Positions 5,284 through 34,097 of a DNA stretch of 34,762 nt are shown here, in pieces. Origin of the DNA: Candidatus Poribacteria bacterium (GTDB lineage: Bacteria > Poribacteria > WGA-4E > WGA-3G). Within the stretch, counting starts at the first letter, position 1. Every line of letters begins with the position of its first letter. A model generated the notes under the pieces. That model did no database searches. It was given only the letters and a program-made list of their open reading frames with translations, and was not told where the DNA came from. The translations under genes and the position numbers were made by a program. The stretch covers positions 1 through 34,762 of the forward strand of contig JAJEAG010000093.1 in NCBI GenBank assembly GCA_022824265.1, read 5' to 3'.

Positions 5284-5757
5284 TTACCTTCTACGTGATC
5301 TGAGTGTTTTAGGTTTACCCAATATTTCCGAAAGAATGATCCCTTGCCGAAATGTATTCGGTGAGAGATCAATCAGGGAAGTCACTGGAAATGGTCTCGT
5401 TGGTAGCGGAGTAGTGGAATCCGGTGGAATAGGTGGCGGTACTTCCGGTTTTCTCTCAGGTTCAGGTTCTTGAACCGGTTCAGGCTCAGGTTCAGATTGT
5501 TCCGTTACCATCGGAGCATTTTCTACCTCACTGTTTACAACTTCCTCTGCTAATTCTGTTTCTTCAGGAAAATCCTCAAAATCCTGCATAAAGGGCGGCA
5601 ACACTACTTCGCTATCGGGTTGTACTTCAACATCGGGATTACTCTGAGGTGGAGGCGATGTATTCTGTTGAGGTTTACGACGACGTGCTCCTCCGAAGAT
5701 TAGAAATAGAATTCCAACAACAATTGCAATTATCGTTTGTATATCAAAATCCATCAT
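5284..5757 (-). CDS. Single-pass membrane protein, acidic/proline-rich linker, conserved SEILGKP tail
   Basis: 157 residues (156 if the second ATG is used). One N-terminal membrane helix (about residues 7-23) is followed by the basic run ARRRK, implying the rest is cytoplasmic. The middle, about 30-125, is low-complexity, rich in Pro and Glu (EPEPEP-type repeats). The C-terminal 25 residues (TFRQGIILSEILGKPKTLR) look folded and resemble a short motif ending small membrane proteins next to other genes in diverse bacteria; I know no function for it. AGGAG lies 3 nt before the first ATG and 6 nt before the second, which favours the second. It sits 18 nt after the flotillin genes, so it is a candidate microdomain-associated adaptor. 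Confidence 0.7.
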   Translation of the reverse strand: MMDFDIQTIIAIVVGILFLIFGGARRRKPQQNTSPPPQSNPDVEVQPDSEVVLPPFMQDFEDFPEETELAEEVVNSEVENAPMVTEQSEPEPEPVQEPEPERKPEVPPPIPPDSTTPLPTRPFPVTSLIDLSPNTFRQGIILSEILGKPKTLRSRRR

Positions 5758-5775
5758 TTTCTCCTTTAGACCTAT

Positions 5776-6807
5776 CTATGAAAGTCCGAGAGAATGTGAG
5801 GAACGGGTTGTGTCTGTTTCTTCAGTTCCACCGGGAGAGGCGATAGATTGACGCATTTCTGTATCTGCAAGTATATTGCGGAGTGTGTAATAATCCATCA
5901 CGCTCATTCTTTCAGAATTGAAGGAGTCTGAAATAGAAAGTGGAATTTCTGCTTCTTCCTCAATCAATTTGACGGTCATCTCTTCTACAAGAGCCTTGTT
6001 TTCTTCCTCTTCTGCCTCTGCGCGTGCCCGTTGTTCTTCGGCTTTTGCGCGTGCAATTTTTAGTTCAGCTTCTGCTTGATCAGTCTGTAATTTTGCGCCG
6101 ACGTTCTCACCGACATTGATATCAGCGATATCAATAGACAATATCTCAAATGCAGTTCCTGCCTCAAGCCCTTTTTCAAGGACTGTTTCAGAGATCCTCA
6201 CGGGGTTTTCCAAAACCTGTTTGTGGTTTCCTGAAGAACCGATTGTTGTAATTATCCCTTCCCCGACTCTGGCACGGATTGTGTCTTCTGTTGCACCACC
6301 GACGAGGCGGTCAATGTTTGCTCTGACAGTGACGCGTGCCTTAACGATGAGTTGGATTCCATCACGTGCAACGGCAGTAATACCAGTGCTTGGATCTTCT
6401 TGCGCGGGAATATCAATAATTTCAGGTGTAACACTGACTTGTACGGCTTGTAGGACATCTCTACCGGCTAAATCAATCGCAGCAGCTTGTGCGAAATCAA
6501 GCACGATATTTGCTTTATCAGCTGCGATGAGTGCTGCAACAACGCTTGCTACGCGCCCACCTGCAAGAAAATGTGCTTCAAGGTCGTCAAGTGAGAGGGT
6601 TAACCCTGCTTTCGTAGCATTAATTTGCGGTTCAACAATAGCGGTTGGTGGAACACGGCGCAAACGCATGGCAACGAGATCGAAAATACCAACCTTCACA
6701 CCAGCAGCAATTGCTGTAATCCACAAACCAAGTGGGACTAACCAAGCAATAACAATTAAGAACAGTAAAGTACAAACAGCAATGATCGCAAGTATAACTG
6801 GTTCCAT
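5776..6807 (-). CDS. floA: FloA-like flotillin (SPFH/UPF0365), copy 2
   Basis: 343 residues. An N-terminal membrane hairpin (about 5-37) is followed by the FloA signature beginning RLRRVPP and a SPFH-like core containing [39 protein letters not shown] and [19 protein letters not shown]. The Ala/Glu-rich coiled coil (about 235-285) is typical of flotillin oligomerisation. Bacterial FloA forms membrane microdomains that recruit signalling and secretion proteins. It is a close paralog of the next upstream gene, 2 nt away, with AAGGAG before the ATG. Unlike copy 1 it has a short insertion (PAQEDPSTG region) in the core and an extra Ser/Thr-rich C-terminal tail of about 40 residues, suggesting the pair form a hetero-oligomer or have split roles. 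Confidence 0.92.
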
Positions 6808-6809
6808 CC

Positions 6810-7724
6810 TTATTCTCCTTCAGTCAGAGGTGAAATATTTAAATTACCTTCACGAAAGGCAGTTGCAAGTGCACGCGGGACAGTAGCCTCAGCTTCAACA
6901 ACTTTAGCACGCATCTCCTGTACATTTGCAGTCATCTGTTGTTTCCGTGCAACCGCGAGTGCACGGCGTTCTTCTGCCTTTGCTTGTGCGACAACAAGGT
7001 CCGCTTCTGCTTGTTCAGCTTGAAGTTCCGCACCAATATTTTTACCTACATTTACATCGGCAATATCAATAGATAGAATTTCAAAAGCGGTACCCGCATC
7101 AAGACCGCGATCTAACACTGTTTTGGAAATAATATCCGGGTTTTCAAGGACATCCTCATAGGTTTCAGAAGCACCAATTGCACTGATGATTCCCTCCCCA
7201 ACTCGTGCAATAATCGTTTCTTCACCAGCACCACCAACAAGGCGGTTGATATTTGTCCGGACAGTAATCCTGACAGTTGCTATGAGTTCTACACCATCAA
7301 GGGCAAGTGCACTAATTCTTGGTGTAGTAATAACGCGAGGGTTAACGCTAACTTGTACGGCTTCAAACACATCTCTACCTGCCAGATCAATAGCAGATGA
7401 CCTTTGAAAAGTCAGATCAATTTTAGCTTTATCTGCCGCGATGAGCGCACTCACAACATTCAAGATATTACCACCAGCGAGGTAGTGTGCCTCCAATTCG
7501 GTTGTTGCGACTGTTAATCCAGCTTTATGTCCACTAATTAATGCTTTGACGATAATGTTCGGATTAACTCGTCTCAGACGCATTCCAATAAGTTCAGAAA
7601 TGCGAAGCGGGGCACCCGCTGCTACAGCAGCAATCCAAAGCCCAACTGGGACGAACCAAAAGAACATAAAGATTACAATGAGTACTACGACAGCAACTAT
7701 CGGAACTACAGTTAGTTCTCCCAT
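6810..7724 (-). CDS. floA: FloA-like flotillin (SPFH/UPF0365), copy 1
   Basis: 304 residues. A membrane segment (about 8-38) is followed by [15 protein letters not shown], the [20 protein letters not shown] block, [17 protein letters not shown] and [20 protein letters not shown], all diagnostic of FloA. The coiled coil near 220-275 ([20 protein letters not shown]) should mediate oligomerisation. GGAG lies 7 nt before the ATG. It is downstream of two NfeD genes; NfeD proteins and SPFH proteins are well known to be encoded together, NfeD supplying a soluble beta-barrel or a protease that acts with the flotillin scaffold. A 183-nt gap holding a MITE-like repeat separates it from nfeD1b. Confidence 0.92.
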
Positions 7725-7784
7725 ATCAAATCTCCTATTGTTTTGTGTTCGTTATTAAAACATAACTCTCAATTTCATCATTTT

Positions 7785-7903
7785 AGGACTTACGCATTTT
7801 TCACATTTTTCCCAATAATTACGACTAAAATGGTGTATTTTCAGCAGGATTATGAGCCTCCAGCGCACTTACAAAACGCGCCTATCACTTGTGCGTAAGC
7901 CCT
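7785..7903. mobile_element. 119-bp MITE-like element with 12-bp terminal inverted repeats
   Basis: Left end aggacttacgca (7785-7796) is the reverse complement of the right end tgcgtaagccct (7892-7903) except for one base. The interior has no coding potential. It lies between nfeD1b and the first floA and ends 5 nt before the nfeD1b stop codon. Ends of this type (aggacttacgca) are familiar from small non-autonomous elements and IS ends in several phyla. No convincing target duplication was found. Confidence 0.6.
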
Positions 7904-7907
7904 GATT

Positions 7908-8387
7908 TCATAAACTTCGGACGACTACACGACTCCCTTCAACTAATATTACTTCAACTTCTGTTTCCGGTGCGACAAACTCTCCTTGTGTAACAATATC
8001 AACGCGTTGACCGTTGATTAGGGCAACACCTGCGGGACGAAGCGGTGTAACCGTTTTTCCAGATTTTCCGACAAGTGCTGTTAATTCTGGCGGTGCTGCT
8101 TGAAAACCGTCCTCAGTCTTCTCAGAAGCACTTAGAATAAAACTTTTACCAATAGAGGATTCACGGAGTAACGACAGACCAATAATAGATATCGGTATAA
8201 CGAAAATCAAAGCAACACTGGTATAAATTAGTGCGGTAGTAGCACCAGCTCTCACCCAAATCATTCCGATTCCGACACAGAATATTATTACTCCCGGAAT
8301 ACCTGCTGCACCGAATCCTGGAAGAAGTAAAATTTCAACAAACACTAACAGTATTCCGAGTGCAATGAGAATAGTTGGTACCCACAT
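7908..8387 (-). CDS. nfeD: NfeD1b-type membrane protein
   Basis: 159 residues, the length of the short NfeD form. Three to four hydrophobic helices occupy residues 2-75, with the conserved turn LLPGFGAAGIPG after the first. The C-terminal OB-fold (about 95-159) has the typical sequence ALVGKSGKTVTPLRPAG and GQRVDIVTQGEFV. Such proteins sit in the inner membrane with the barrel exposed and partner with SPFH-family proteins. GGAGG lies 11 nt before the ATG. It is 35 nt downstream of the protease-containing NfeD1a gene, whose C-terminal half it resembles, and upstream of two floA genes, so it fits an NfeD-flotillin operon. Confidence 0.9.
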   Translation of the reverse strand: MWVPTILIALGILLVFVEILLLPGFGAAGIPGVIIFCVGIGMIWVRAGATTALIYTSVALIFVIPISIIGLSLLRESSIGKSFILSASEKTEDGFQAAPPELTALVGKSGKTVTPLRPAGVALINGQRVDIVTQGEFVAPETEVEVILVEGSRVVVRSL

Positions 8388-8422
8388 TATTGATATAACC
8401 TCCGAAAGTTTAATATAAATTC

Positions 8423-9961
8423 CTATTCTTCAAGAGTTTCAACCGATATTTTCGATCCTTCAACTTCTGCGACCTTAACAGGTGTATTTTGTGCGATGAA
8501 GTCCCCGACCGTGACAACATCCAATCGCTTATTATCTATTTTTGCGGTACCAGCGGGACGTAACGGTGTTAATGCAACACCGGTTTTACCGAGGAAACTC
8601 TCAAAATCCTCAAGACCGGCAGAATGGTAACCAAGATCAGTGCTCATCACTGTGGAAAGCGAAAATCGTTGAAATGGAGCTGATTTAGGCAGAAATATTG
8701 TGGCAAGAATGGCTAACACAGAGGTTAGTATTACAGAAACAGAAAGCCAGAGTAGAGCCATATTTATATCATCTGTGTTTTCGAAAAACACGTAAAAAAT
8801 ACTGCCAAACATCATTATTAGTCCGAGGATTCCAGCAATTCCAAAACCGGGAATAACAAATACCTCTAAAACAATTAATGCTAATCCTACTACAAAGATG
8901 AGTGGCATCCATGCTGAAGAAATTTGGTTTAACATGTGTCCACCAAAGAATAAACCGATGAACATTATACCGAGAAATCCTGGAATACCGAAACCTGGTG
9001 TGCGGATTTCAACAAAAAGCCCGAGTCCGCCTAACGATAGTAGAAATGCACTGATGTATGGACTTGTTATAAAGAAGACGATTCGGTCAGCAATAGTGAC
9101 AGCAAACCGATTGATCTGTGCATTTTTCAAAGATTTTATAGGTGTGACCTGATTAACACTAAGTTCTTCCTGTTTATTGATGATACCTTCTCTGGTAAGT
9201 GCCATAAATATAGCATCATTCTTATCCTCTCTATACCTTAAATCTACTTCCACGATCTGATATTGTTCAAGCAATTCGGATATAGTTTCAGCCTGTGTAT
9301 CAGCAAATCCGTAATCAAGTGCCTGTCGTGTCGTCATGTTAAGGAGTTCACCCTTTGCACAAAGGATCTCCATCTGTGTTCCTGCATCCTGCTCATTAAG
9401 GTATTCCTCGGGTCGTAATTTAATTATATCGCCATTTGCTAAGCGAACAAGAAAAAGTCTTTTGTCTACCATCGCTTCTGCAATGTCCGGATTTCTATCT
9501 TGACGTTCTGCAGTGGAACGAATAGTTCCTCGAATATAAGAGACGATTTTCTCACTTACCTCATTTCCTCTTGAGTCCACAGGTTCTGAATCACCAATAG
9601 TCGCCCCCGAAGTCATAACAATCTGTGTGCATGCAGCAGAAATCATAGCCCCTGCGGAGATAGCTTGTCGGTTGACAAAAGCAATAGTAGGTATTTCCGT
9701 CTTTTGAATCAATCTAATAATTTTGACTGCAGAATCAACTCTTCCGCCAGGTGTATCCACATCAAAGATAATAGCGTCTGCATTTGCCGCCTCTGCTCTT
9801 TGGATACCTTTCATGATATATGAACCAACACCACCACCGATTTCAGTTCTAATATCCAGTATGTAAACTAAAGCATCACCCTGAGCGAATATACTAACTA
9901 ACGAGGATAAGCAGAAAATTATGAGGAGCGTATAAAATAGTAGATTTCTCTTATGTTTCAT
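8423..9961 (-). CDS. nfeD: NfeD1a-type membrane-bound ClpP-class serine protease
   Basis: 512 residues. The signal peptide ends near FAQ (27), and the ClpP/SppA-like protease domain follows (about 28-215). The catalytic serine is probably S102 in the AISAGAMIS motif, with GG of TPGGRVDS upstream as oxyanion loop and K138 (SEKIVSYI) as the likely general base of a Ser-Lys dyad. Several membrane helices (about 285-430) contain the repeated PGFGI(P/A)G turn, and an OB-fold closes the protein (about 440-512, TPLRPAGTAKID). Characterised archaeal homologues cleave the C-terminus of their stomatin partner; here the flotillins downstream are natural candidates for partners. GGAG precedes the ATG by 7 nt. 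It heads the NfeD-FloA cluster. Confidence 0.9.
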   Translation of the reverse strand: MKHKRNLLFYTLLIIFCLSSLVSIFAQGDALVYILDIRTEIGGGVGSYIMKGIQRAEAANADAIIFDVDTPGGRVDSAVKIIRLIQKTEIPTIAFVNRQAISAGAMISAACTQIVMTSGATIGDSEPVDSRGNEVSEKIVSYIRGTIRSTAERQDRNPDIAEAMVDKRLFLVRLANGDIIKLRPEEYLNEQDAGTQMEILCAKGELLNMTTRQALDYGFADTQAETISELLEQYQIVEVDLRYREDKNDAIFMALTREGIINKQEELSVNQVTPIKSLKNAQINRFAVTIADRIVFFITSPYISAFLLSLGGLGLFVEIRTPGFGIPGFLGIMFIGLFFGGHMLNQISSAWMPLIFVVGLALIVLEVFVIPGFGIAGILGLIMMFGSIFYVFFENTDDINMALLWLSVSVILTSVLAILATIFLPKSAPFQRFSLSTVMSTDLGYHSAGLEDFESFLGKTGVALTPLRPAGTAKIDNKRLDVVTVGDFIAQNTPVKVAEVEGSKISVETLEE

Positions 9962-15595: not shown

Positions 15596-16939
15596 TCAAG
15601 CTTCCTCACCGAAATGTGAAGCCACTAACGTTAAATCTAATATATTCACTTTCCCATCACCATTGACATCTGCCTCTGGTGGTGCATTATCTGACCCGAA
15701 GTGTGAGGCGACAAAAGTTAAATCTAAGATGTTTACTCTTCCATCACCATTAACATCCCACGGTTTTCTGGGTGGTTCAAGTATTTCCGAATTTTCCACA
15801 GTAACAGGAAACGAGACTCCACCCAACGCACCAATTATCACTTCAGACAATGTAAGTTTAGATGCTTTAGCACTTACGACTTCAAAAATGATGGTTACGA
15901 GAGTACCACTTGATGCAGTTGCTACAGTGTCAACAGAGATCTGAGCAAAAGAAATCTGATTGTTTTCAACTATTGTTTCCACAGGGACTAATTGACCAGA
16001 TAAATATGTTCCATGTGTCAATGAGACGAACTTTAATGCTGTCGGGTCAAACTCTAATACAGCCTGATACCCACTAACATCTTTAGCATCTGCAATGTCA
16101 ATAGTGATAACAAGTTGTTCACCGACCCGAGGAGACTCCACTGACGAAGGCATAATTCTGACAATCACATGGATAGGTTGTTCAACAGCGAGTAATGCTG
16201 CCAGTTCATCAATTGCAGCGGAGTCTTGTAACAGAAGGTGCACATCAGGATCATTGATAAATGCTTTAACCTCGGCATCTTCCTTTAGCAGTGTGATAAA
16301 TGTATCAGGTATATCAGGTAAGAATACCTTAAGTATGTCAGGATCATCAACTACAACTTGTATATTTTCTGGTGACAGCAGTGGTTGAATCTTGGGATCT
16401 TTTGCTGCTGTGAGCACTTCCTGAAGATTATTTTTTATATCTTCTCGTTGAAAAAAATCTTTATACCTTTCAAAAATACGTTCGGCAAGTGATCGTTGGT
16501 TTTGTTCAAGTATCGTGGCAAGTTCATTGATTGCATCTATATCTTGAAGCAGTGCTTGAAAATCGTCATCTCTGAGCATCGTTCGAACATCTTCATCCTC
16601 TTTTAACAATGTAATGAATTTATCGTCAATATTAGGAATCTGATCTTTTAATATATCTGGCTCATCCAATACAAGCAAAACGGTTTCAGGTGTTAAGAGT
16701 TGCTGATTTTCTGGTTTCTTGATTTCCTCAAGAACTACGGGAAGTATTTCTAAGATATCTTCTCTCAGAAGAAGTGTCTGATACTTTTCAAACACCTTTT
16801 CGGCAAGGGTTGGATCCTGTGCATCTGCGTTGACACAAAAGAAAATACTCATACCTATGATAGAAAATACAAATATGTATGTTAAGGAGAGATGTTGATG
16901 TTTTCTGAAAAAAGATTGTGTCTTAAGTGAATGAAACAT
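15596..16939 (-). CDS. Secreted protein: tandem helical repeats, cohesin-like domain and dockerin-like repeats
   Basis: 447 residues from the ATG at 16939, which has AGGGG 6 nt upstream; a TTG 18 nt earlier would only lengthen the signal. The signal peptide ends near NADAQ (about 41). Two about-105-residue repeats (42-146, 147-252) share LAE(K/R)(V/I)FE(K/R)Y, (P/S)PE(T/N), DEP/DDPDILK and KFITLLKED/TFITLLKED, and look alpha-helical. A cohesin-like beta-sandwich follows (about 255-384: VGEQLVITIDIADAKDVSGYQ, VLEFDP). The C-terminus has two dockerin-like calcium motifs DVNGDG(R/K)VNILDL with VASHFG. Cohesin and dockerin in one chain suggests self-assembly or surface anchoring rather than a cellulosome. 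Function unknown. Confidence 0.82.
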   Translation of the reverse strand: MFHSLKTQSFFRKHQHLSLTYIFVFSIIGMSIFFCVNADAQDPTLAEKVFEKYQTLLLREDILEILPVVLEEIKKPENQQLLTPETVLLVLDEPDILKDQIPNIDDKFITLLKEDEDVRTMLRDDDFQALLQDIDAINELATILEQNQRSLAERIFERYKDFFQREDIKNNLQEVLTAAKDPKIQPLLSPENIQVVVDDPDILKVFLPDIPDTFITLLKEDAEVKAFINDPDVHLLLQDSAAIDELAALLAVEQPIHVIVRIMPSSVESPRVGEQLVITIDIADAKDVSGYQAVLEFDPTALKFVSLTHGTYLSGQLVPVETIVENNQISFAQISVDTVATASSGTLVTIIFEVVSAKASKLTLSEVIIGALGGVSFPVTVENSEILEPPRKPWDVNGDGRVNILDLTFVASHFGSDNAPPEADVNGDGKVNILDLTLVASHFGEEA

Positions 16940-16984
16940 AAATTCCCCTGTGATCAAGCATAGATTTTTCCATGTTGAATTTCA

Positions 16985-22722: not shown

Positions 22723-22749
22723 ACTTTACATACAATTAAATAGATGAAC

Positions 22750-22985
22750 GGTTCAGGTGCCGGTCGCAAGAGTTGCGATAAACCTCGGAGAATAGGGAAG
22801 CGCGGTGAAATTCCGTCACGGCCCCGCCACTGTAAACGATTAATTCCTCAATTAGGAATTTCCGCTGAAAAAACCACTGTCAACGGTTGATGGGAAGGTA
22901 CAGCGGGTTTTAATAGCACAAGTTGTTTTGTATGCTATGTTAAAAGATCGGAAGTCAGGAGACCTGCCTGGATCGAGTTTCACGC
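22750..22985 (+). promoter_or_regulatory. Cobalamin (AdoCbl-type) riboswitch
   Basis: Conserved elements in correct order: ggtgcc near 22756, aatagggaag (22791-22800), the core gccccgccactgtaa (22821-22835), ccactg (22874-22879), gggaagg (22892-22898) and the B12 box gaagtcaggagacctgcc (22951-22968). Binding of adenosylcobalamin normally turns off genes for B12 import or synthesis. It lies 180 nt upstream of the propeller gene on the same strand, with a terminator-like hairpin between. The junction and peripheral stems were not folded computationally, so the edges are approximate. Confidence 0.95.
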
Positions 22986-23115
22986 GTCTGCTTTCGCGGG
23001 AAAGCGGTGGAACAGAACACAGCAATATCCTGTCAAATTCAGAATAAACGGTCAATATAAAGGACTTAGTCTTTTACAGAATTACAGGATCAGATTTTCA
23101 GAGTGTGTTGCCTTT

Positions 23116-23142
23116 CCCCTGTCTTTTCAATGAGAGCAGGGG
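23116..23142 (+). terminator. Terminator-like hairpin of the riboswitch expression platform
   Basis: CCCCTG (23116-23121) pairs with CAGGGG (23137-23142), and the stem can extend by five pairs with a bulge around a caat loop; TTTCTTGTTT follows. It lies between the riboswitch and the GGAGG of the first gene, the usual position for a transcriptional off-switch. Confidence 0.65.
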
Positions 23143-23168
23143 TTTCTTGTTTCATTACGGAGGTATTA

Positions 23169-24467
23169 ATGAACAGAAGTTTTTTCTTTAGGCGACAACT
23201 CCGGTTTGATATAAATCGTAAAGTGCATTCGTTCCTATTTATCGGTGCGATGCTTTTCACACTCCTTTTCAACATTGCCTTTGCACAAACAGAAGTTCAG
23301 AATCTTGCCGTTGTTTTAAACGCGCTGGATAAGGACGACTGGAATATTACTTCATCCCTTTCAATTATAGATTTGGATGAACCGAATCTGAATCAGGCTG
23401 TTGATAGCGAAGTCATTTCTATCGGTGGTGTTCCAAGCGATATTCTTATTCACGGACATCACGCGTATATATCAAATTTTGATTGGCTTTCTCAACCTTC
23501 CCACGACAGTATATTAATCGTTAATTTGGAACGACGTGAGATTATCGGTGTCATTTCTTTGCAGCCTGGGGTTTATCCACAAAGTCTCGCACTTGTTAAC
23601 CAAGACAAAATGTATATTACCTGTGACAATACGCATCAGGTGCATGTTGTCAACATTGGCAGTCGCAGCGTGCCTAAAATCATAACGGATGCATCTTTCA
23701 ACAAAACGACCGGTATTACAGTTCTCAATGGGAAAGCATACGTGACTAATCCTGCGTGGGAGTGGGATGCAGCTGCTGGGAAGTCTGTCTATCATCAGAG
23801 TTCTGTCAGTGTAATAGATACAGAGACAGACTCAGTGGTGAAAACTATTGCAATGCCTATCAATGCGGGTGGTATTCTCAATGATGGTGATTCCACGGTT
23901 ATTGTAAAGACAACAGGGAACTATAACGAAATATCCGGCGAACTTGTCTTTATTGATGCAACAACTGATGAAGTTTTCAATACGGTTGACCTTAAGATGA
24001 CACCAGGATCATTTGCGATCAATTCACAGAAGCAGTTGTTTATCCAGGGTGGATGGCTCAATCGGGGTTTGCTTATTTATGATGTCCCGACACAAGCGTG
24101 GATTCGTGATAAAGATAACACGTTAGAGGCATTTGCTGGCGGTTCAGGAATGACTTTTGGTGATGATGGTAACCTTTACATTACGAAACCTGACTGGACA
24201 GGTGGTGGATTGTCTACCATGCTGGTGATGGGGTCTGACGAGACACTTATCAAAACCTATCAACTGGGGCACGGTACCGATGAGGTAGCACTTGCGCAAA
24301 TTGTGCCACGGAACGAAGATGTGAATGATGATGGATTTATTGATATAAAGGACCTTGTTCTCGTCGCGCAGGATTTCGGTAAAACCGGTCCTGGTTTAAT
24401 TGGTGATGTTAATGGGGATGGCGAGGTTAATATCTTAGACTTAGTCCGCGTTGCTCAGCATTTTTAG
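23169..24467 (+). CDS. Secreted YncE-like beta-propeller with dockerin repeats, cobalamin-regulated; candidate corrinoid-binding protein
   Basis: 432 residues from the ATG at 23169, which follows GGAGG by 5 nt; longer in-frame starts lie inside the terminator. The signal peptide (about 18-39) ends AFAQ. Residues about 45-375 form repeated four-strand blades, e.g. SSLSIIDLDEP, DSILIVNLERREIIGVI, QVHVVNIGSRSVPKI, SVSVIDTETDSVVKTIAM and GELVFIDATTDEVFNTVDL, the YncE/surface-layer propeller pattern. The last 49 residues (384-432) are two dockerin-like calcium motifs, DVNDDGFIDIKDL and DVNGDGEVNILDL. The riboswitch upstream ties it to B12. Bacteroidetes BtuG is a B12-binding surface propeller in B12 loci, so the analogous role is a reasonable inference; no ligand residues can be confirmed. 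Confidence 0.85.
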   Translation: MNRSFFFRRQLRFDINRKVHSFLFIGAMLFTLLFNIAFAQTEVQNLAVVLNALDKDDWNITSSLSIIDLDEPNLNQAVDSEVISIGGVPSDILIHGHHAYISNFDWLSQPSHDSILIVNLERREIIGVISLQPGVYPQSLALVNQDKMYITCDNTHQVHVVNIGSRSVPKIITDASFNKTTGITVLNGKAYVTNPAWEWDAAAGKSVYHQSSVSVIDTETDSVVKTIAMPINAGGILNDGDSTVIVKTTGNYNEISGELVFIDATTDEVFNTVDLKMTPGSFAINSQKQLFIQGGWLNRGLLIYDVPTQAWIRDKDNTLEAFAGGSGMTFGDDGNLYITKPDWTGGGLSTMLVMGSDETLIKTYQLGHGTDEVALAQIVPRNEDVNDDGFIDIKDLVLVAQDFGKTGPGLIGDVNGDGEVNILDLVRVAQHF

Positions 24468-24526: not shown

Positions 24527-26446
24527 ATGGGTAGATGGGGATTTTTGTTTTTTCTTCCGATATTCTGTATCGGTTGTACACAAGAAAAGTCAGAAGAGCC
24601 GCTTTCATGGCAGATTACCTTTTTTTCACTGGGTGCAAAAGTACAGTTTGAAAACACTATACCAATAAATAAAGTTGCTGCCTACAATTCCGATGGAACA
24701 ATGGTCGCTTACCTCGACTTTCCTGTTCAACCGCGTCAGGTTGAGTCGCTTTATTTTGAATGGCAAGCCGGTGAAACCTATAGATTTGAAGCGACTATAC
24801 CCTCAGGAAAGGTATTCGTTGAAACGGTGACTGCCCCGCTTAAGTATGCTCGCGGTAATTTTGAGATTGCTATCCCTTATGGTGCTGCAATGAGATCGGA
24901 AAAACAAAGACATAAGGGTGATAATCAGAGAGCACTGCTTCTGCAAGGAAGTGTGATGACTGCAACTGTCATTGTAACAAACGGAAATGTTCCTGCTACT
25001 TTTGATATAGAACTATGTATACCGTCATCTCTTGACATCAATCTTTTTCCAGAAGGATGGGAGACTGTAACTACGGATGGACAAACTTGTCTTTCAACAA
25101 CTGATGCATTTAGTGTCGCATCGGAAGTGTGGTATCGTGAACTGGAAATAAATATACCTCATTTTCCTGCCAGTCCAACCAATACAACTGATATTCAAAG
25201 TATATCGGGGATTGTCCGCTGGACAACTGCTGATGGGGAAAGATGGGAACAGAAAGCAGAGGTTCAATTACGTGTAGCCTCTGTTCCTGAGATTGTAGAA
25301 CATATTTCTATTGCATCAATTGATATGCCTACGGATGCGGCAGGGATAGCGGATACGAGACAAAGAGAAGATACTATATATCATCCACGTCCACTTTTCA
25401 GTTGGCTTGAAACACAGCAAACGGATGAGTATGCTCCTATCAGTTATCAGACAGTTCGTATTAATAATGCGGGTGAAGATACTATTCACGTGGTAGTTGC
25501 ATCAATAAACCGTGATGTGATAACTGGAGAGGCGGTATCCTTTCTGGCACCACCGGATGCAGTGAATGCTGGTACAGATCGTAGCATTAGTTTTGCAAGT
25601 TTACCGGGTAGACAATTAACGTCTATCTCTTTACCTATCTATTTTCATCCGCAATCAGCCGAAGCAGGTAAATATGAACGTGAGATTGAAGTGAAGATAT
25701 GGGGAAGCGATACAACCGTCCTCAGTGCTATAAGACCGGTACACGTCATTACTCCTAATCGTCAGGCACTTTATGTAAGTGGATTGGCAATTTTCGCGAG
25801 TTGTATCGGTTTGGTAGTGTTGCTTCGTTTTCACCGTCAATTCTTTACCCGATTCTCCACTAAGCAACTCATTGTCATCGCCCTATTTGGAACAACGATA
25901 TTCGTTGCTGTCGTAGTGCCATCAACACTATTTTTGAACCTTATCCGCGTGATACTGGGACCTGTCTCTGTGCTGCTAACTGGATTGATTAATGAGACGC
26001 TCTATTATGCGTTGCTTACTGCATTGTTAATCTATATTTATGGAACACCGAGAGAAAACGCAGAACGAGGACATAATCCTTCACAAACAGGTGACAAGGG
26101 AGGTGTAATCCTGCTGGTATCTGCGGTTCGTTTGCTTCTTGGTGCTGTTACGTTCGGTCTTTTCACTCCGATGACGATTATCTACACAGGTACGAGTATT
26201 CTTTTATTGGAGACAGGATTTCTGCTTGTTCGTAGACGTGGTTTGCTTGCGTGGGCACTTGTTCTCAGTATCTGTGATGCGATTGCTGTTTATGTTGATT
26301 TTCAACTCTCTATTCTCTTTTACCGTCTCTTCTTTGCAGATTGGTATATATGGCTCCGTATATTTGTTGAGGGGTTTGCATATACATTCATCGGTGTGCT
26401 GCTCGGTGCAAGATTAGGACGCGGTTTGTGGCGAGTAGCGGATTAA
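24527..26446 (+). CDS. Lipoprotein with extracytoplasmic sandwich domains fused to a six-to-seven-TM module resembling an ECF S-component
   Basis: 639 residues. A short signal ends CIGC with C17 as probable lipid attachment (C at -3 is atypical). Residues 26-118 form a beta domain shared with the next protein. Residues about 135-250 and 255-405 look like Ig/CARDB-like sandwiches. Hydrophobic segments run near 415-433, 447-470, 472-505, 526-545, 547-568, 572-598 and 608-630. The TM part (PSTLFLNLIRVILGPVSVLL, then small-residue-rich helices) resembles substrate-binding S-components of ECF vitamin transporters, but I cannot name a family. Lying second in a B12-riboswitch operon, it may pass corrinoid across the inner membrane. 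No ECF ATPase or T-component is in the window. The gap from gene one is 59 nt. Confidence 0.75.
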   Translation: MGRWGFLFFLPIFCIGCTQEKSEEPLSWQITFFSLGAKVQFENTIPINKVAAYNSDGTMVAYLDFPVQPRQVESLYFEWQAGETYRFEATIPSGKVFVETVTAPLKYARGNFEIAIPYGAAMRSEKQRHKGDNQRALLLQGSVMTATVIVTNGNVPATFDIELCIPSSLDINLFPEGWETVTTDGQTCLSTTDAFSVASEVWYRELEINIPHFPASPTNTTDIQSISGIVRWTTADGERWEQKAEVQLRVASVPEIVEHISIASIDMPTDAAGIADTRQREDTIYHPRPLFSWLETQQTDEYAPISYQTVRINNAGEDTIHVVVASINRDVITGEAVSFLAPPDAVNAGTDRSISFASLPGRQLTSISLPIYFHPQSAEAGKYEREIEVKIWGSDTTVLSAIRPVHVITPNRQALYVSGLAIFASCIGLVVLLRFHRQFFTRFSTKQLIVIALFGTTIFVAVVVPSTLFLNLIRVILGPVSVLLTGLINETLYYALLTALLIYIYGTPRENAERGHNPSQTGDKGGVILLVSAVRLLLGAVTFGLFTPMTIIYTGTSILLLETGFLLVRRRGLLAWALVLSICDAIAVYVDFQLSILFYRLFFADWYIWLRIFVEGFAYTFIGVLLGARLGRGLWRVAD

Positions 26447-26486
26447 GGTTGTTGTCTATAATCTTTATATTGTGAGGAATATCATA

Positions 26487-28139
26487 ATGAAATTGAATCG
26501 AATTTATTGTTTTCTATTATTGCTGTTTATCTTACCTTGTGCAACAGTTATCGCAGAACTGAACGTTGTCTGGGTTCGGACAGGTGTTGTGCTTGAAGCT
26601 GAAACAAAAGGCGAACTTAACTCAAAAATTGAAGTTGCAACAAAAGAAAATACAACATTATTTAATACTGTGCCAATCCAAAGTATTGATGAGAAACGTG
26701 TTCTACTGCGATATTCGTGGCATCCCAACGAAGATTATCGTTTTCGTATAGGAGAGACCGTATTAGATGTAACTTCACCTTTGAAACCAGTATCTTATCT
26801 CATCAGAACGATTGAATTAGATGGTCTTTTGTCGTTGATGGAGAATCTTCGTCAACCTGCTAAACCGACTTCCATTGCTTTTGGTAACAGCATGGAAGAT
26901 CCAACACTTGTGGTCGCAACGGATAGAGGACATCTGGTTATTATAAATCCGTTAACTGGTAAGACGGTTTGGAAAACACGAATATCGGAAGGCTATATCA
27001 GACATATTGGATTTAGTCCCGATAGTTCGCTGCTGTATGTTGGAGAGCAAGCTGCGGACGGCTTTATTTACTGTTATGACCTGACAGCGAAAACCCCACA
27101 ACTGCGTTGGAAATACCGAACAGCAGATGATATTGAGACCTCTACGCCATCTAATCCAGACAGTGTATATGCGTGGGTTAGCTACCCCGGTCAGTCGTGT
27201 ATGCGGACACTTCCGAATGGTGATCTGTTGGTATCAGGTGTGCATTCGTGGACACAGAACGAAATAGCTGAAAAGCGATCACTGCTTTATCGGTTTGATG
27301 TTAAGACAGGTGCTGTCAAATGGAAATTTCCAAGTACTGGTGCAATGCAGAAGATATTTCGCTGGTTTGATGTGAGTGCTGATGGTAAAACACTTGCGTT
27401 TGTTACAGATGAGAGTGGAAAAGGCAACGGAATGCTTACTGTGCTTGATGTGGAAACGGGAATGGAAAAATGGCACACAGATATTGAACCCCTTACTCCG
27501 TATTTTGAGGGTGTTACTTTCTGGCGTGGTGTCAGCATGTCTGGTGATGGTAAGTTTGTGAACGTTACAACGGATGATGGACGCGCTTTCATATTTGATG
27601 TAAACCAACCAGAACCTATATGGCAACAGAATTTAGCGACACCACTTGAAGTGAGTGGCGTGCCGATAATTGCAACAACTGGCACTATTGGGGCAACGAA
27701 TGATGTGGCACTCTTTGTGACTGGGACTACGTATATCCCATACCACCTTCAGAAAGGTGCGCAACGTCCTTCTACGATGCATCCTAACGGGATGACAGCT
27801 TTTGCCTATTCGTGGCGTGGTGAAAAGGTTTGGCAGTGGAAACTTGAGAATATGCCGCAAGGTTTACGTACTGATTCTGAAGGTCGTTATGCTGCCTTGG
27901 CTGTTTCTAAACGGAGCAATGATCCGAATGAGAGTCTGCATGGTGTTTCGGTGTTTGATTTGACTGCTGAGGGTAGCGGATTGGCGAAATATCTGTATAC
28001 TTATCGTACGGAGGGACAACTTCCTTACGATACGCTTGCTATTAGTGCTGATGGATCGCTTATTGCTATTGTTGAGATGCCGATTGTTATGCCTGATGAG
28101 AGGCTGCGCGGTAAGAATCGTGTGCATGTGTTGTATTGA
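26487..28139 (+). CDS. Secreted PQQ/WD-like beta-propeller protein, third gene of the cobalamin operon
   Basis: 550 residues from the ATG at 26487, chosen because GAGG lies 9 nt upstream; an in-frame GTG at 26472 would put the ribosome site inside the gene. The signal peptide ends near VIAE (about 24). Residues 25-113 match the N-terminal domain of the preceding protein: W..., RYSWHPNEDYRF against YFEWQAGETYRF, and VTSPLKP against VTAPLKY. The remainder is a propeller of PQQ-like blades (TDRGHLVIINPLTGKTVWK, LYRFDVKTGAVKWKF, LTVLDVETGMEKWH, AFAYSWRGEKVWQWK). No dehydrogenase catalytic residues are visible. With gene one it gives two different propellers in a B12-controlled unit, suggesting ligand capture or receptor assembly. 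Gap to gene two is 40 nt. Confidence 0.8.
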   Translation: MKLNRIYCFLLLLFILPCATVIAELNVVWVRTGVVLEAETKGELNSKIEVATKENTTLFNTVPIQSIDEKRVLLRYSWHPNEDYRFRIGETVLDVTSPLKPVSYLIRTIELDGLLSLMENLRQPAKPTSIAFGNSMEDPTLVVATDRGHLVIINPLTGKTVWKTRISEGYIRHIGFSPDSSLLYVGEQAADGFIYCYDLTAKTPQLRWKYRTADDIETSTPSNPDSVYAWVSYPGQSCMRTLPNGDLLVSGVHSWTQNEIAEKRSLLYRFDVKTGAVKWKFPSTGAMQKIFRWFDVSADGKTLAFVTDESGKGNGMLTVLDVETGMEKWHTDIEPLTPYFEGVTFWRGVSMSGDGKFVNVTTDDGRAFIFDVNQPEPIWQQNLATPLEVSGVPIIATTGTIGATNDVALFVTGTTYIPYHLQKGAQRPSTMHPNGMTAFAYSWRGEKVWQWKLENMPQGLRTDSEGRYAALAVSKRSNDPNESLHGVSVFDLTAEGSGLAKYLYTYRTEGQLPYDTLAISADGSLIAIVEMPIVMPDERLRGKNRVHVLY

Positions 28140-28206: not shown

Positions 28207-28431
28207 ATGTCGTATTTCACAGACGAAGAACTCTTACAACTTATTGAAACAGGTGGATCTGAACGTGTTGAGTTCAAAGAATCTTTGTCTGGTAATGCTC
28301 CAGAGAGAATTAGAGAAGCGATATGTTCATTTGCGAACGATCTGTCTGGTAACAACAAATCGGGTGTCGTCTTTGTTGGTCTGACGGCTCCCAAACCTAA
28401 GAGATTGGGCTTTGTGCCGAACGTTAGATAA
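28207..28431 (+). pseudogene. Truncated AlbA_2 (Schlafen-like) domain protein
   Basis: 74 residues from the ATG at 28207. The first 60 or so match the start of AlbA_2 proteins: DEELLQLIETGGSERVEFKESL, then REAICSFANDLSGNNKSGVVFVG, the helix-strand of the DNA/ATP-linked fold. Full-length relatives run to several hundred residues with an ATPase-like half. Here homology stops after FVG and the last about 16 residues (TAPKPKRLGFVP...) look foreign before a stop. It overlaps by 8 nt the stop of a truncated mazF on the other strand. I read it as a gene cut by a deletion, although its strong promoter is still present and a short product is possible. Confidence 0.6.
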
Positions 28432-29713: not shown

Positions 29714-31756
29714 CTATGAACCAATAATTGATTTCATATCCCATAGGAGGATAGCGCCATCATAACTCCCACTTGCCAGATATTTGCCATCAGGTGAGAA
29801 GGCTAAATCTTGTACATCAGAAGCATGTCCCCAAAAAGTATGGACGTTTTCACCGGTCGACATTTCCCACAAATGTATTGGTGCTTTGTCCAATCCCCAT
29901 TTCCACCAAGCACCGGAAACAAGATACTTTCCACATGGAGAAAATGCTAATGCCCAAGGACGAATACATCCATTAGGTTGAAGGAATATCATGCGTGTTT
30001 CTAAGGTTTCTGTGTCCCACAATCGGATTTCGTTGTTTAACCCATCTGCGATCCAAGTACCGAGTCCACCTGCTATCCAGTTTCCACACGGCGAAAAAAT
30101 GATTGACTGCATGTGTTGATATTTCTTCCATTGAAGATTCCCTCCATTGAGAACGCGCTCAATTTCCTCTGGTTCACCTCTATACATAGAGGCATCTTCT
30201 AAGGTGTCTGGTAGCGGAAGTGGTGATATTTGTTCTCCAGTTTCAACATTCCAGAGCAAAGCTGTTCCATCCCTGGAAGAGGTAACGAACCGTTTTCCAT
30301 CAGGATGAAATGCTATTGCTTCAATTGAACTTGTATGTCCTATCAGAGCGTGTTGTTTTTTCCAGTTTGCAACATCCCAAATAAATAACTCATCTCCCCG
30401 TCCTCCACTAACGATGTATTCCCCAGTAGGCGAAAACGTCAACGAATAGCTACCGTGTTCATGTGCTGTTAGTTCTGCGACTAATTCTTCAGATGCAATA
30501 TGCCAGACTTGTATATCATTGTCTCCTGCGTTAATAGCCAAGAGTTGATCATCTGGAGACAGTGCCATACATTGTTTTAGAGATCTACGCTTACCTGAAG
30601 GAGGCAGTATCCGCTGGACATCCCGTTTGTCAATATCCCAAAATATCTTACCAGTACTTCCCCAGTTGCCACCAATCAATGTATTGTTATCCTGCCTAAA
30701 TTCCACCGCATAGGGAATACTTCCATATCCAGAAAAGAACGATTTTGTAGTAGAGGTATCTTCCTGCCATATTTGAATATTACTGTTCCAGCATGCAATT
30801 GCAAATTTTGTTCCATCCTTTGAAAACCTTGCGTTTTTTGCCGTAGTGCCAATAGTGTTGAAGGTATCCATCACTTTATGTTGTGAAGCATCCCATATTA
30901 TCACTTTATCATCATAGATGTCTGCAATTCGTAGTGTTTCATCAGGTTTATAAGCAAGTCTGACTCGTTTCCCTTCATAGGATTTGGGCATCATCATAAG
31001 AGATTCAGTCTGAATATCCCATACTTGAACGGTAGCACCGAGGCTTGCACTTGCCAGGTATTGTCCACAAGGTGAAAACAGGAGGGTATGCAAGGGGTCA
31101 GTGTGTCCTGTGAGGTGTGCTATGTCTTCACCTGTATTTATATTAGAAATCATTACTGTTTCTGGTGAAGACACATACGCAAATAGATGGCTATTTGGTG
31201 AAAAAGCAATTGGAAAATGTCTGTCGTATGCAGCACCTTCCTTCCTATAATCATCAAATTTAGGTTTTTCAAGTTTATAATTTCTGATGGGTTCGAAGTG
31301 TTCTTCGCGCCATGCATAGACTGTACTATGTCCAAAACCTGAAGCAGCGATATATTGATCGTCCGGTGAAAAGTGGACATGAAGGACGACATTACGTCGT
31401 TCAGTGCCTCCCCAGTCAGTTTTTGTAACACACTGTCCGTTTTGTGTATCCCATACCTTAAGAATCCCGTCTTGGTCTCCTGTGGCAATCCAACGTGAAT
31501 CGTGTGAGAAGGTAGCAACATTCATCATGCCGCGTTCTGTACCCCATAGTGCACGTGGGGCAAGTGTCTCTGTATCATACAACCAAAATCCGATCTTTGT
31601 TGCAACGGAAAGATATCTTGCATCATGTGAGAATTGGACATCAAGTCGTAAACCTTGTCCAAATCGTGCTATTGCCCCATCTGGGAGTTCCCAAGTTGTT
31701 ACATCTGTGTCGTCATGTGGTCTAAGTGCGGGGGTTGAAGTGGTTCTATTTTCCAT
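29714..31756 (-). CDS. WD40-repeat protein, paralog 1
   Basis: 680 residues from the ATG at 31756, supported by AGGAG 9 nt upstream and by the identical start MENRTTSTPALRP in the next paralog; a longer frame begins 90 nt earlier without support. After the leader about 14 WD40 blades fill the chain, e.g. FSHDSRWIATGDQDGILKVWDTQ, FSPCGQYLASASLGATVQVWD, FHPDGKRFVTSSRDGTALLWN and FSPDGKYLASGSYDGAILLWD, enough for two propellers. There is no signal peptide or other catalytic domain, so it is a cytoplasmic scaffold of unknown partners. The last blade is the best conserved among the paralogs. Confidence 0.88.
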   Translation of the reverse strand: MENRTTSTPALRPHDDTDVTTWELPDGAIARFGQGLRLDVQFSHDARYLSVATKIGFWLYDTETLAPRALWGTERGMMNVATFSHDSRWIATGDQDGILKVWDTQNGQCVTKTDWGGTERRNVVLHVHFSPDDQYIAASGFGHSTVYAWREEHFEPIRNYKLEKPKFDDYRKEGAAYDRHFPIAFSPNSHLFAYVSSPETVMISNINTGEDIAHLTGHTDPLHTLLFSPCGQYLASASLGATVQVWDIQTESLMMMPKSYEGKRVRLAYKPDETLRIADIYDDKVIIWDASQHKVMDTFNTIGTTAKNARFSKDGTKFAIACWNSNIQIWQEDTSTTKSFFSGYGSIPYAVEFRQDNNTLIGGNWGSTGKIFWDIDKRDVQRILPPSGKRRSLKQCMALSPDDQLLAINAGDNDIQVWHIASEELVAELTAHEHGSYSLTFSPTGEYIVSGGRGDELFIWDVANWKKQHALIGHTSSIEAIAFHPDGKRFVTSSRDGTALLWNVETGEQISPLPLPDTLEDASMYRGEPEEIERVLNGGNLQWKKYQHMQSIIFSPCGNWIAGGLGTWIADGLNNEIRLWDTETLETRMIFLQPNGCIRPWALAFSPCGKYLVSGAWWKWGLDKAPIHLWEMSTGENVHTFWGHASDVQDLAFSPDGKYLASGSYDGAILLWDMKSIIGS

Positions 31757-31889
31757 AAAGTTGTCTCCTTTTTCTTGTGGATATACAATATGCGAAAATT
31801 CTTGCTGTAAGGTAATTAAATTCCCTGAAAGAAGTGTATAACTCACGGGAAGAATGCCGATGCAATTGATACATTAAGGTTTCAGTGCT

Positions 31890-34097
31890 TTAGGGGTTGA
31901 TATAGGGTTTCACATCCCAAAGGAGGATTGTACCATCGTAACTACCACTGGCAAGGAGTTCACCATTCGGTGAAAAATCAAGTGACCAAACATCTGTAGG
32001 ATGTCCCCAGAATGTATGTATGTTTTCACCAGTTTCCACATCCCACAAACGGACAGACATTCTTGTTTGTCCGTCTTGCCATTGTGCGCCAACAGCGATG
32101 TATTTCCCACACGGAGAAAACCTAAAGGTTTGAGGTTTCTGACATCCTGTAGGTGGAATAATTATAATATATGGATCTAAGGTGGTCACATCCCATAGTC
32201 TTATTTCATTTCGCATCCCACTTCGTCGTATTATCCCAGCAAGACGTGTACCGCAAGGTGACAACCTGAGTTTACCCCAGAAACGTTGCGAGATTGTTTC
32301 CTGCTGTTCTTGATACCGTTGAATATTTTGTGGTGTACCTCTATACAATGAAGAATTTAAACAGATCGTTGTATCAAGTGAACCGACTTGTTCTCCGCTT
32401 TTAAGGTCCCATACGAGAATTGGATTTTCGCGTGGCACTGTGAGAAAATGCTTTCCGTTTGGATGACACAATAGTTGCCATCGAGAACTTTGTTCTGGCA
32501 GTGGCACTTGGTGTAGTTTCTCCCACTGTGAAGTATTCCATATTGTAAAACTTTCTCCATAAATGCTAACAAAATATTCACCTGTTGGCGAGAATCTCAT
32601 ACTTTTTATTCTTGATCTGTTTTGTGGGAGTTCTGCAATATGTGTACTGGATGCAAGGTGCCAGATTTTTATGGTGTTTGGTTTACTGACAGTTGCAAGA
32701 TATTCTGCTGTCGGCGAGAACACCATATCGACCTTCATCGATCCACCTTTTAGTTCAGCGACCTGTGTGCCTGATGTAAGGTTCCAGACCCTAACTTGTT
32801 TATCTTCAACTGCAGCGAGTAGTTCTCTACAGGGGGAAGTAGAAACAACACCGACTGAATTGGTAAATGGAGAGTGAAAAGTCTGTTTTATATCTCGATT
32901 ATTGACATTCCATAATCGGTATCCGGCAGGATCATGGCAACTTAGCAATGTCCGATTGTCTTTTGAAAATCGAAGGTCAACTACACCTCTTGTTAAATAT
33001 GTGGGAAGTGATTGAACGGTTGATGCTGTTTCCTTTGTCCATAGCTGCAGTTCTCCACGTCTATTAGTTATTGCGTATTGTGAGCCGTCATTTGAAAAAC
33101 TACTACTTAAAGGCATCCAACATTCAAAGGTATCTACAGTCTCTTGCTTGGTTCCGTTCCATATCACTACCTCTTTACTTGTTAATCCGGCAACCAATAA
33201 AGTGCCATCTGATGTATAGGTAGGGATCCCCCTGCAGATATGCCGTTTTTCCATGTATTCTGTTGGTGATATTTCAAATGTTCCATTATGTACATTCCAA
33301 ACATGATATTTATTTCCACAATCACATGCAGCCAGATATTTACCACACGGAGAAAAAACTAACCTGTAACATCCTTTCCGAACTCTGTCAGTATATTCAT
33401 CCGAGAATTCTGCGATTTGTTCTCCAGTCTCCAGGTGTATCACGGATGTAATATGCGGAACAGGTGTATATGCGACAAGACGTTTATCTGGTGAAAGTGC
33501 ATTTGGAAAAGATGTATGGGGATCAACATCCATTCTAACCAGTTTCAGTGGTACCGTGAAGCTGTCGATGGGTGTGTCAGTATTTTCCTTCCAATTGTAA
33601 ACGGTAAAGTATCTACCTCTACCTGTTCTCTCACGAGAAAAAGGTTTATCATCTAAGTTTACAATTAAATGTGAGAGTGTTAAATGTTGACCATCTTGTG
33701 AAAAGCGTAGATTTCGCACTGCTCCAATTACACCTTCAGGATTTTTGGGTATATCTATTTTGGCAACACATTGCAGGTTTTGTGTATCAAATACCACTAC
33801 ATCCCCATCCCAGTTTCCAGTAGCAAACCACCGGGCATCTTGTGAAAAGGCGATATCTGATAGCATGCCGCGTTCTGTATTCCAAAATGCGCGTAGTTTC
33901 ATAGTATCAAGGTCATACCACCAGCAACCAATAGTTGAAGCAACAACAAGTGCAGTTCCGTCGGGTGAAAATGCCGTACCACCGAAAATACCACCTCTTC
34001 CTAATCGTGCAATTGCCCCATCTGGGAGTTCCCAAGTTGTTACATCTGTGTCGGTAAGTGGTCTAAGTGCTGGGGTTGAAGTGGTTCTATTTTCCAT
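31890..34097 (-). CDS. WD40-repeat protein, paralog 2
   Basis: 735 residues; ATG at 34097 with AAGGAG about 8 nt upstream. The first 25 residues are almost identical to paralog 1 (MENRTTSTPALRP, DTDVTTWELPDGAIAR). Many degenerate WD40 blades follow, clearest in FSQDARWFATGNWDGDVVVFDTQ, FSPCGKYLAACDCGNKYHVWN, FSPTAEYLATVSKPNTIKIWH and the terminal FSPNGELLASGSYDGTILLWDVKPYINP. About 14 blades suggest a double propeller. The YRGTPQNIQRY insert aligns with YRGEPEEIERV in paralog 1. Internal sequence has diverged while the start, including the untranslated leader, is conserved, consistent with duplication followed by partial gene conversion. 133 nt separate it from paralog 1. Function unknown. 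Confidence 0.88.
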   Translation of the reverse strand: MENRTTSTPALRPLTDTDVTTWELPDGAIARLGRGGIFGGTAFSPDGTALVVASTIGCWWYDLDTMKLRAFWNTERGMLSDIAFSQDARWFATGNWDGDVVVFDTQNLQCVAKIDIPKNPEGVIGAVRNLRFSQDGQHLTLSHLIVNLDDKPFSRERTGRGRYFTVYNWKENTDTPIDSFTVPLKLVRMDVDPHTSFPNALSPDKRLVAYTPVPHITSVIHLETGEQIAEFSDEYTDRVRKGCYRLVFSPCGKYLAACDCGNKYHVWNVHNGTFEISPTEYMEKRHICRGIPTYTSDGTLLVAGLTSKEVVIWNGTKQETVDTFECWMPLSSSFSNDGSQYAITNRRGELQLWTKETASTVQSLPTYLTRGVVDLRFSKDNRTLLSCHDPAGYRLWNVNNRDIKQTFHSPFTNSVGVVSTSPCRELLAAVEDKQVRVWNLTSGTQVAELKGGSMKVDMVFSPTAEYLATVSKPNTIKIWHLASSTHIAELPQNRSRIKSMRFSPTGEYFVSIYGESFTIWNTSQWEKLHQVPLPEQSSRWQLLCHPNGKHFLTVPRENPILVWDLKSGEQVGSLDTTICLNSSLYRGTPQNIQRYQEQQETISQRFWGKLRLSPCGTRLAGIIRRSGMRNEIRLWDVTTLDPYIIIIPPTGCQKPQTFRFSPCGKYIAVGAQWQDGQTRMSVRLWDVETGENIHTFWGHPTDVWSLDFSPNGELLASGSYDGTILLWDVKPYINP

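Follow-up and report, generated by a model that had tools for sequence, protein, structure and literature searches.

A predicted beta-sandwich domain shared by a membrane lipoprotein and a propeller protein in a cobalamin-riboswitch operon of Candidatus Poribacteria

The window analysed here is the whole of contig C71 (34,762 nt) from the Candidatus Poribacteria genome G000, and positions follow its numbering unless another locus is named. It contained one cobalamin riboswitch, the only one detected genome-wide, and 3' of it three genes in the same direction, called here genes 1, 2 and 3 (Table 1).

Table 1. Features of the operon and of the shared N-terminal domain in the window.
Feature	Position	Strand	Evidence
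Cobalamin riboswitch (RF00174)	22738..22985	+	86.2 bits against a gathering threshold of 31.5
Gene 1: secreted YncE/BtuG-like beta-propeller with dockerin-like tail	23103..24467	+	phmmer and family matches
Gene 2: lipoprotein with three Ig-like beta-sandwich domains, linking helix and six-helix membrane domain	24527..26446	+	
Shared domain, gene 2 copy	24605..24874	+	residues 27-116; profile alignment and AF2 strands
Gene 2 membrane domain, about residues 440-639	25844..26443	+	six helices (AF2), N-in/C-in by charge pattern
Gene 3: secreted, shared domain followed by WD40/PQQ-type beta-propeller	26472..28139	+	Pfam PQQ_2, AF2 model
Shared domain, gene 3 copy	26556..26819	+	residues 29-116; profile alignment and AF2 strands

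Through phmmer, gene 1 matched the YncE-family structures 8ptf/8ptd and 8blw_B (BtuG1 of BtuB1G1) with E about 5e-6 to 1e-5, and its family matches were DUF5074, NF052280 YncE and Dockerin_1. BtuG is the surface B12-capturing propeller of the B12-riboswitch loci of Bacteroidetes (PMC6143338, PMC10404256). Gene 3 matched Pfam PQQ_2 (E=1.2e-12), and the PDB fold search with its whole model returned WD40 propellers; propeller matches of this kind say little about function. Another gene of the window (15596-16957, minus strand) ends in a dockerin-like tail like that of gene 1, and over about 50 residues the two tails are 56% identical. At 29714-34097 on the minus strand lie two related WD40-repeat genes in tandem, with products of 710 and 735 aa that have a common start motif MENRTTSTPALRP.

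Gene 2 was present in 70 of the 85 genomes of the phylum, all of them members of one taxonomic order. The gene order 1-2-3 was kept in nearly all loci fetched, and riboswitch and order together spanned four families. Genes 2 and 3 had no gene 1 found adjoining them in L042 and L044, and in L046 other genes intervened between gene 1 and gene 2. The cobalamin riboswitch was found 5' of the operon in 16 of the 18 operon loci scanned, including L042 (genome G016), where it lay directly 5' of gene 2; no match was obtained for L048, which lies close to the end of its contig, or for L044, which has no adjoining gene 1. Just 3' of gene 3 there is a short ORF of 74 aa (28207-28431), by eye similar to the start of an AlbA_2/Schlafen-type protein. 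It looks like the truncated remnant of such a gene, because relatives carry an AlbA_2/Schlafen-type gene 3' of gene 3 (L034, L051, L052 and L054-L056).

The AF2 model of gene 2 had a mean pLDDT of 79.8, and the lipobox Cys17 was invariant across the aligned orthologues. Foldseek matches of the whole model were dominated by the Ig-like ectodomain and were generic Ig-like multi-domain proteins. The membrane domain occurs in gene 2 only. Its six predicted helices, whose positively charged loops fall for the most part on the cytoplasmic side, would place both termini in the cytoplasm, as in the S components of ECF transporters. The family PF09819 (YkoE/ABC_cobalt) gave matches below the cut-off with orthologues from two families other than that of the window, covering positions 2-117 of 121 in G025 (E=0.0014-0.0019) and 3-119 of 121 in G013 (E=0.09-0.25); it matched neither the gene 2 of the window nor most members. 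With all matches below the cut-off, we rejected PF09819 as a firm assignment of the membrane domain. PDB profile searches with the full gene 2 and with the membrane domain found no relatives.

The similar segments of gene 2 and gene 3 were located where an earlier note had placed them, and their limits were refined to those in Table 1. The gene 2 copy begins right after the lipobox cysteine and the gene 3 copy right after the signal peptide. That note had described an alignment running end to end. Pairwise comparison of the two window sequences could not show this, as BLASTP aligned 32 residues (E=3e-4) and a shuffle test gave p about 0.001, a raw similarity that by itself may be called suggestive; with family profiles the alignment did cover the whole segments. 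These profiles were built from orthologues of four families for gene 2 and three for gene 3. Compared by hhalign, the two domain profiles gave P=1.1e-5 with a probability of 82%, so the profile-profile check that the note called for proved significant, and the rest of the two proteins was unrelated as claimed (profile comparison P=0.19).

Several controls were set against this value. Reversed profiles gave P=0.12-0.22. Among 150 block-shuffled profiles the mean score was 14.8 (sd 2.5), the maximum 22.1 and the minimum P=0.0015, which places the observed score of 32.7 about 7 sd above them. Forty further windows taken from these proteins, including the other Ig-like domains, reached at best a score of 18.4 and P=0.0098. 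When the gene 3-domain profile was run against a six-frame translation of the complete genome, it matched only its own copy and the gene 2 domain (E=0.085). HMMER profile-to-sequence scores were low, at most about 11 bits, though for every protein (34/34 and 27/27) the best match was placed in the correct domain. We therefore consider the N-terminal segments of gene 2 and gene 3 homologous, with a probability of roughly 0.93.

Predicted structures agree with this reading. In two AlphaFold2 models of the full proteins, made from separate alignments, each segment formed eight strands with block pLDDT of 72-94: residues 28-33, 36-41, 49-53, 59-64, 72-76, 84-90, 96-102 and 110-115 in gene 2, and 31-35, 38-42, 53-57, 69-73, 76-80, 88-93, 96-101 and 110-115 in gene 3. 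The profile alignment, which is blind to the models, paired strands 1-8 of one copy with strands 1-8 of the other, with no cross-pairing. The shared domain is thus predicted to be a beta-sandwich of about 90 residues and eight strands. Residues common to both families are a Gly of the first hairpin, the Trp and Tyr of a tyrosine-corner-like motif, and an Ala/Ser-Pro pair, which likely form the core of the fold.

Two unrelated Greek-key/Ig-like sandwiches might have converged on a similar tyrosine-corner-like motif (W..GxxYxF) and strand spacing. The strongest stretch of the pair is exactly this motif, the profile-to-sequence scores are low, and C-termini of other poribacterial repeat proteins score weakly through the same pattern. 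Against this, the profile P value was judged with nulls that included the other Ig-like domains of gene 2, the register agrees over all eight strands, and neither domain profile retrieved Ig or Fn3 structures from 177,635 PDB sequences. Convergence is accordingly very improbable, and we retain homology.

The shared domain matched no Pfam, NCBIfam or PDB family; no Ig/Fn3 model exceeded its cut-off over it, and PDB profile searches with either domain were without match. The suggestion that it is an undescribed domain, carried by a transporter-like lipoprotein as well as by a propeller, is borne out in the family libraries searched, and its setting is an operon with a B12 riboswitch. The shared domain itself would constitute a new family.

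A joint profile of the two copies matched in 71 of the 85 genomes; 68 had at least two matches, with both copies present, and G024, G025 and G026 had one each. Extra matches came from a tandem copy of gene 3 or were weak pattern matches. The tandem copy belongs to L044 (G020), where gene 3 is duplicated (5484-7361 and 7688-9418 of that locus) and both products carry the domain. The weak matches, in about ten genomes (E 0.006-0.08), fell mostly in C-termini of repeat-rich proteins and followed the hairpin/tyrosine-corner pattern only, and we rejected them as a third domain family. We take these proteins to be of FG-GAP/ASPIC-UnbV type; the similarity of their C-termini in L066-L069 and L071 to the shared domain may be due to very distant kinship between sandwich domains or to convergence.

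In a maximum-likelihood tree the gene 2 copies and the gene 3 copies formed two groups with 100/100 support. The two separate clades therefore point to one old split: there was one old duplication and no later exchange, and it predates the divergence of the families of this poribacterial order. In G025 and G026 genes 2 and 3 stand in tandem and gene 2 keeps the domain, but the signal peptide of gene 3 runs straight into the propeller, so that gene 3 has lost its copy. In G024 gene 3 carries the domain but stands apart from any gene 1, gene 2 or riboswitch, and gene 2 was not detected in the 80% complete assembly of this genome. The genus in which gene 3 lost its copy offers a natural test of the role of the domain.

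What this role is may be considered from the same genomes. The earlier note had proposed that the domains perhaps dock the two proteins together; as a docking module, the copies would tether propeller and carrier through a periplasmic contact, made either between themselves or with a shared partner. Both copies are N-terminal and periplasmic and lie in adjacent, co-regulated genes, and the domain is convincingly found in genes 2 and 3 only. Their tree distances keep a small residual correlation (partial r=0.26, judged against a permutation null that ignores the tree), which docking would also predict and which is the one positive sign for it, but the raw distance correlation of 0.91 is no higher than the 0.94 of other domains. 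The copies have no residues in common past the fold core, which does not favour the proposal. Nor does docking appear strictly needed, because both genes persist in G025 and G026 although the gene 3 copy is gone, and in G024 gene 3 carries the domain although no gene 2 was detected. We consider docking doubtful.

We lean, by a little more than even odds, to the view that the shared domain is a structural module which packs on the domain that follows and holds it in position, rather than a private lock of gene 2 with gene 3. Most of the residues invariant in one family only are found where the following domain joins (gene 2, GxxxIxxPY; gene 3, SPLKPxxY). The AF2 model of gene 3 reached an overall pTM of 0.81, and therefore the domain is predicted to have a defined place on the propeller. 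The gene 3 copy was the fastest-evolving segment tested, with a mean distance of 0.55 against 0.31 for the propeller of gene 3.

ECF genes were sought downstream in the operon and none was found. The genome encodes EcfT and an adjoining fused double EcfA on contig C19 (L059, 7555-9984), with no S component beside them. This is the arrangement of group II ECF transporters, in which a common motor serves S components whose genes lie at other loci (PMC5997447). The genome has only one strong FecCD permease, on contig C74, and two weaker FecCD-like matches on contig C94, one of them just over the cut-off. On C74 (L101, 3985-10886) a TonB receptor, two HmuY genes, a periplasmic binding protein, the FecCD permease and an ATPase stand together. 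This is the only clear BtuCDF-like locus in the genome, and because of its TonB/HmuY setting we read it as heme uptake and rejected it as a classical BtuCDF system.

We propose, as somewhat more probable than its opposite, that the operon imports B12 or another corrinoid, with the propellers capturing the ligand and gene 2 acting as an S component-like carrier which uses the unlinked ECF motor. At low B12 the riboswitch would be released; the secreted YncE/BtuG-like propeller and the gene 3 propeller would capture the ligand or hand it on; and gene 2, lipid-anchored and combining an Ig-like stalk with a six-helix domain, would serve as the carrier and borrow the EcfT/EcfAA' motor of the genome. 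B12 or a corrinoid is the most likely substrate because of the riboswitch, the ECF motor and the heme assignment of the FecCD locus; the ligand itself is deduced from two features, the riboswitch and gene 1.

Cobalamin riboswitches also regulate cobalt transporters, and PF09819 is named for cobalt transport. The operon might thus handle cobalt, another metal or a tetrapyrrole, with gene 2 as the S component for the same substrate or as a membrane protein not engaged in transport. But gene 1 resembles the BtuG-type capture propellers, and a metal ion would presumably need neither large ectodomains nor two propellers, so we regard this alternative as unlikely and keep B12 or another corrinoid as the ligand. 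An improbable extension of corrinoid import is that the duplicated domain, on carrier and propeller alike, forms a relay passing B12 across the periplasm, within an undescribed corrinoid importer made of a lipid-anchored ECF-type S component, a three-domain Ig-like stalk and two secreted propellers.

The operon thus appears to be a B12-uptake system of a new layout, and we find it of more interest than the shared domain alone. If this is true, propeller-based B12 capture extends beyond Bacteroidetes, and an S component-like carrier may bear a long lipid-anchored ectodomain. Poribacteria are uncultured sponge symbionts, and since they are uncultured, genome-based evidence on their B12 uptake is useful.

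Compared with the Ig-like/Fn3 superfamily, the shared domain is likewise a predicted beta-sandwich with a tyrosine-corner-like motif and an N-terminal position, but differs in having no significant Pfam, NCBIfam or PDB match. The BtuBG/BtuH loci of Bacteroidetes resemble the operon in their B12-riboswitch control, their YncE-like propeller and the further secreted proteins adjoining it. Unlike them, the poribacterial operon is without btuB, btuF, btuC and btuD. No TonB-receptor gene was found in the operon or adjoining it within the window, and the 15 Plug matches of the genome were all on other contigs. BtuG is a surface lipoprotein seated on BtuB, whereas in gene 1 no lipobox was seen and there is a dockerin-like tail. 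The BtuBG/BtuH systems are not known to contain the shared N-terminal domain, and the membrane step here, judged from sequence, looks ECF-like. A further comparison for that step is the group II ECF transporter with the B12 S component CbrT. Gene 2 differs from CbrT in being a lipoprotein, in its Ig-like ectodomain of about 400 residues and in an additional leading helix, and its own similarity, below the cut-off, is to YkoE/ABC_cobalt (PF09819); the two systems have in common a six-helix membrane domain and an EcfT/EcfA motor whose genes lie at another place in the genome.
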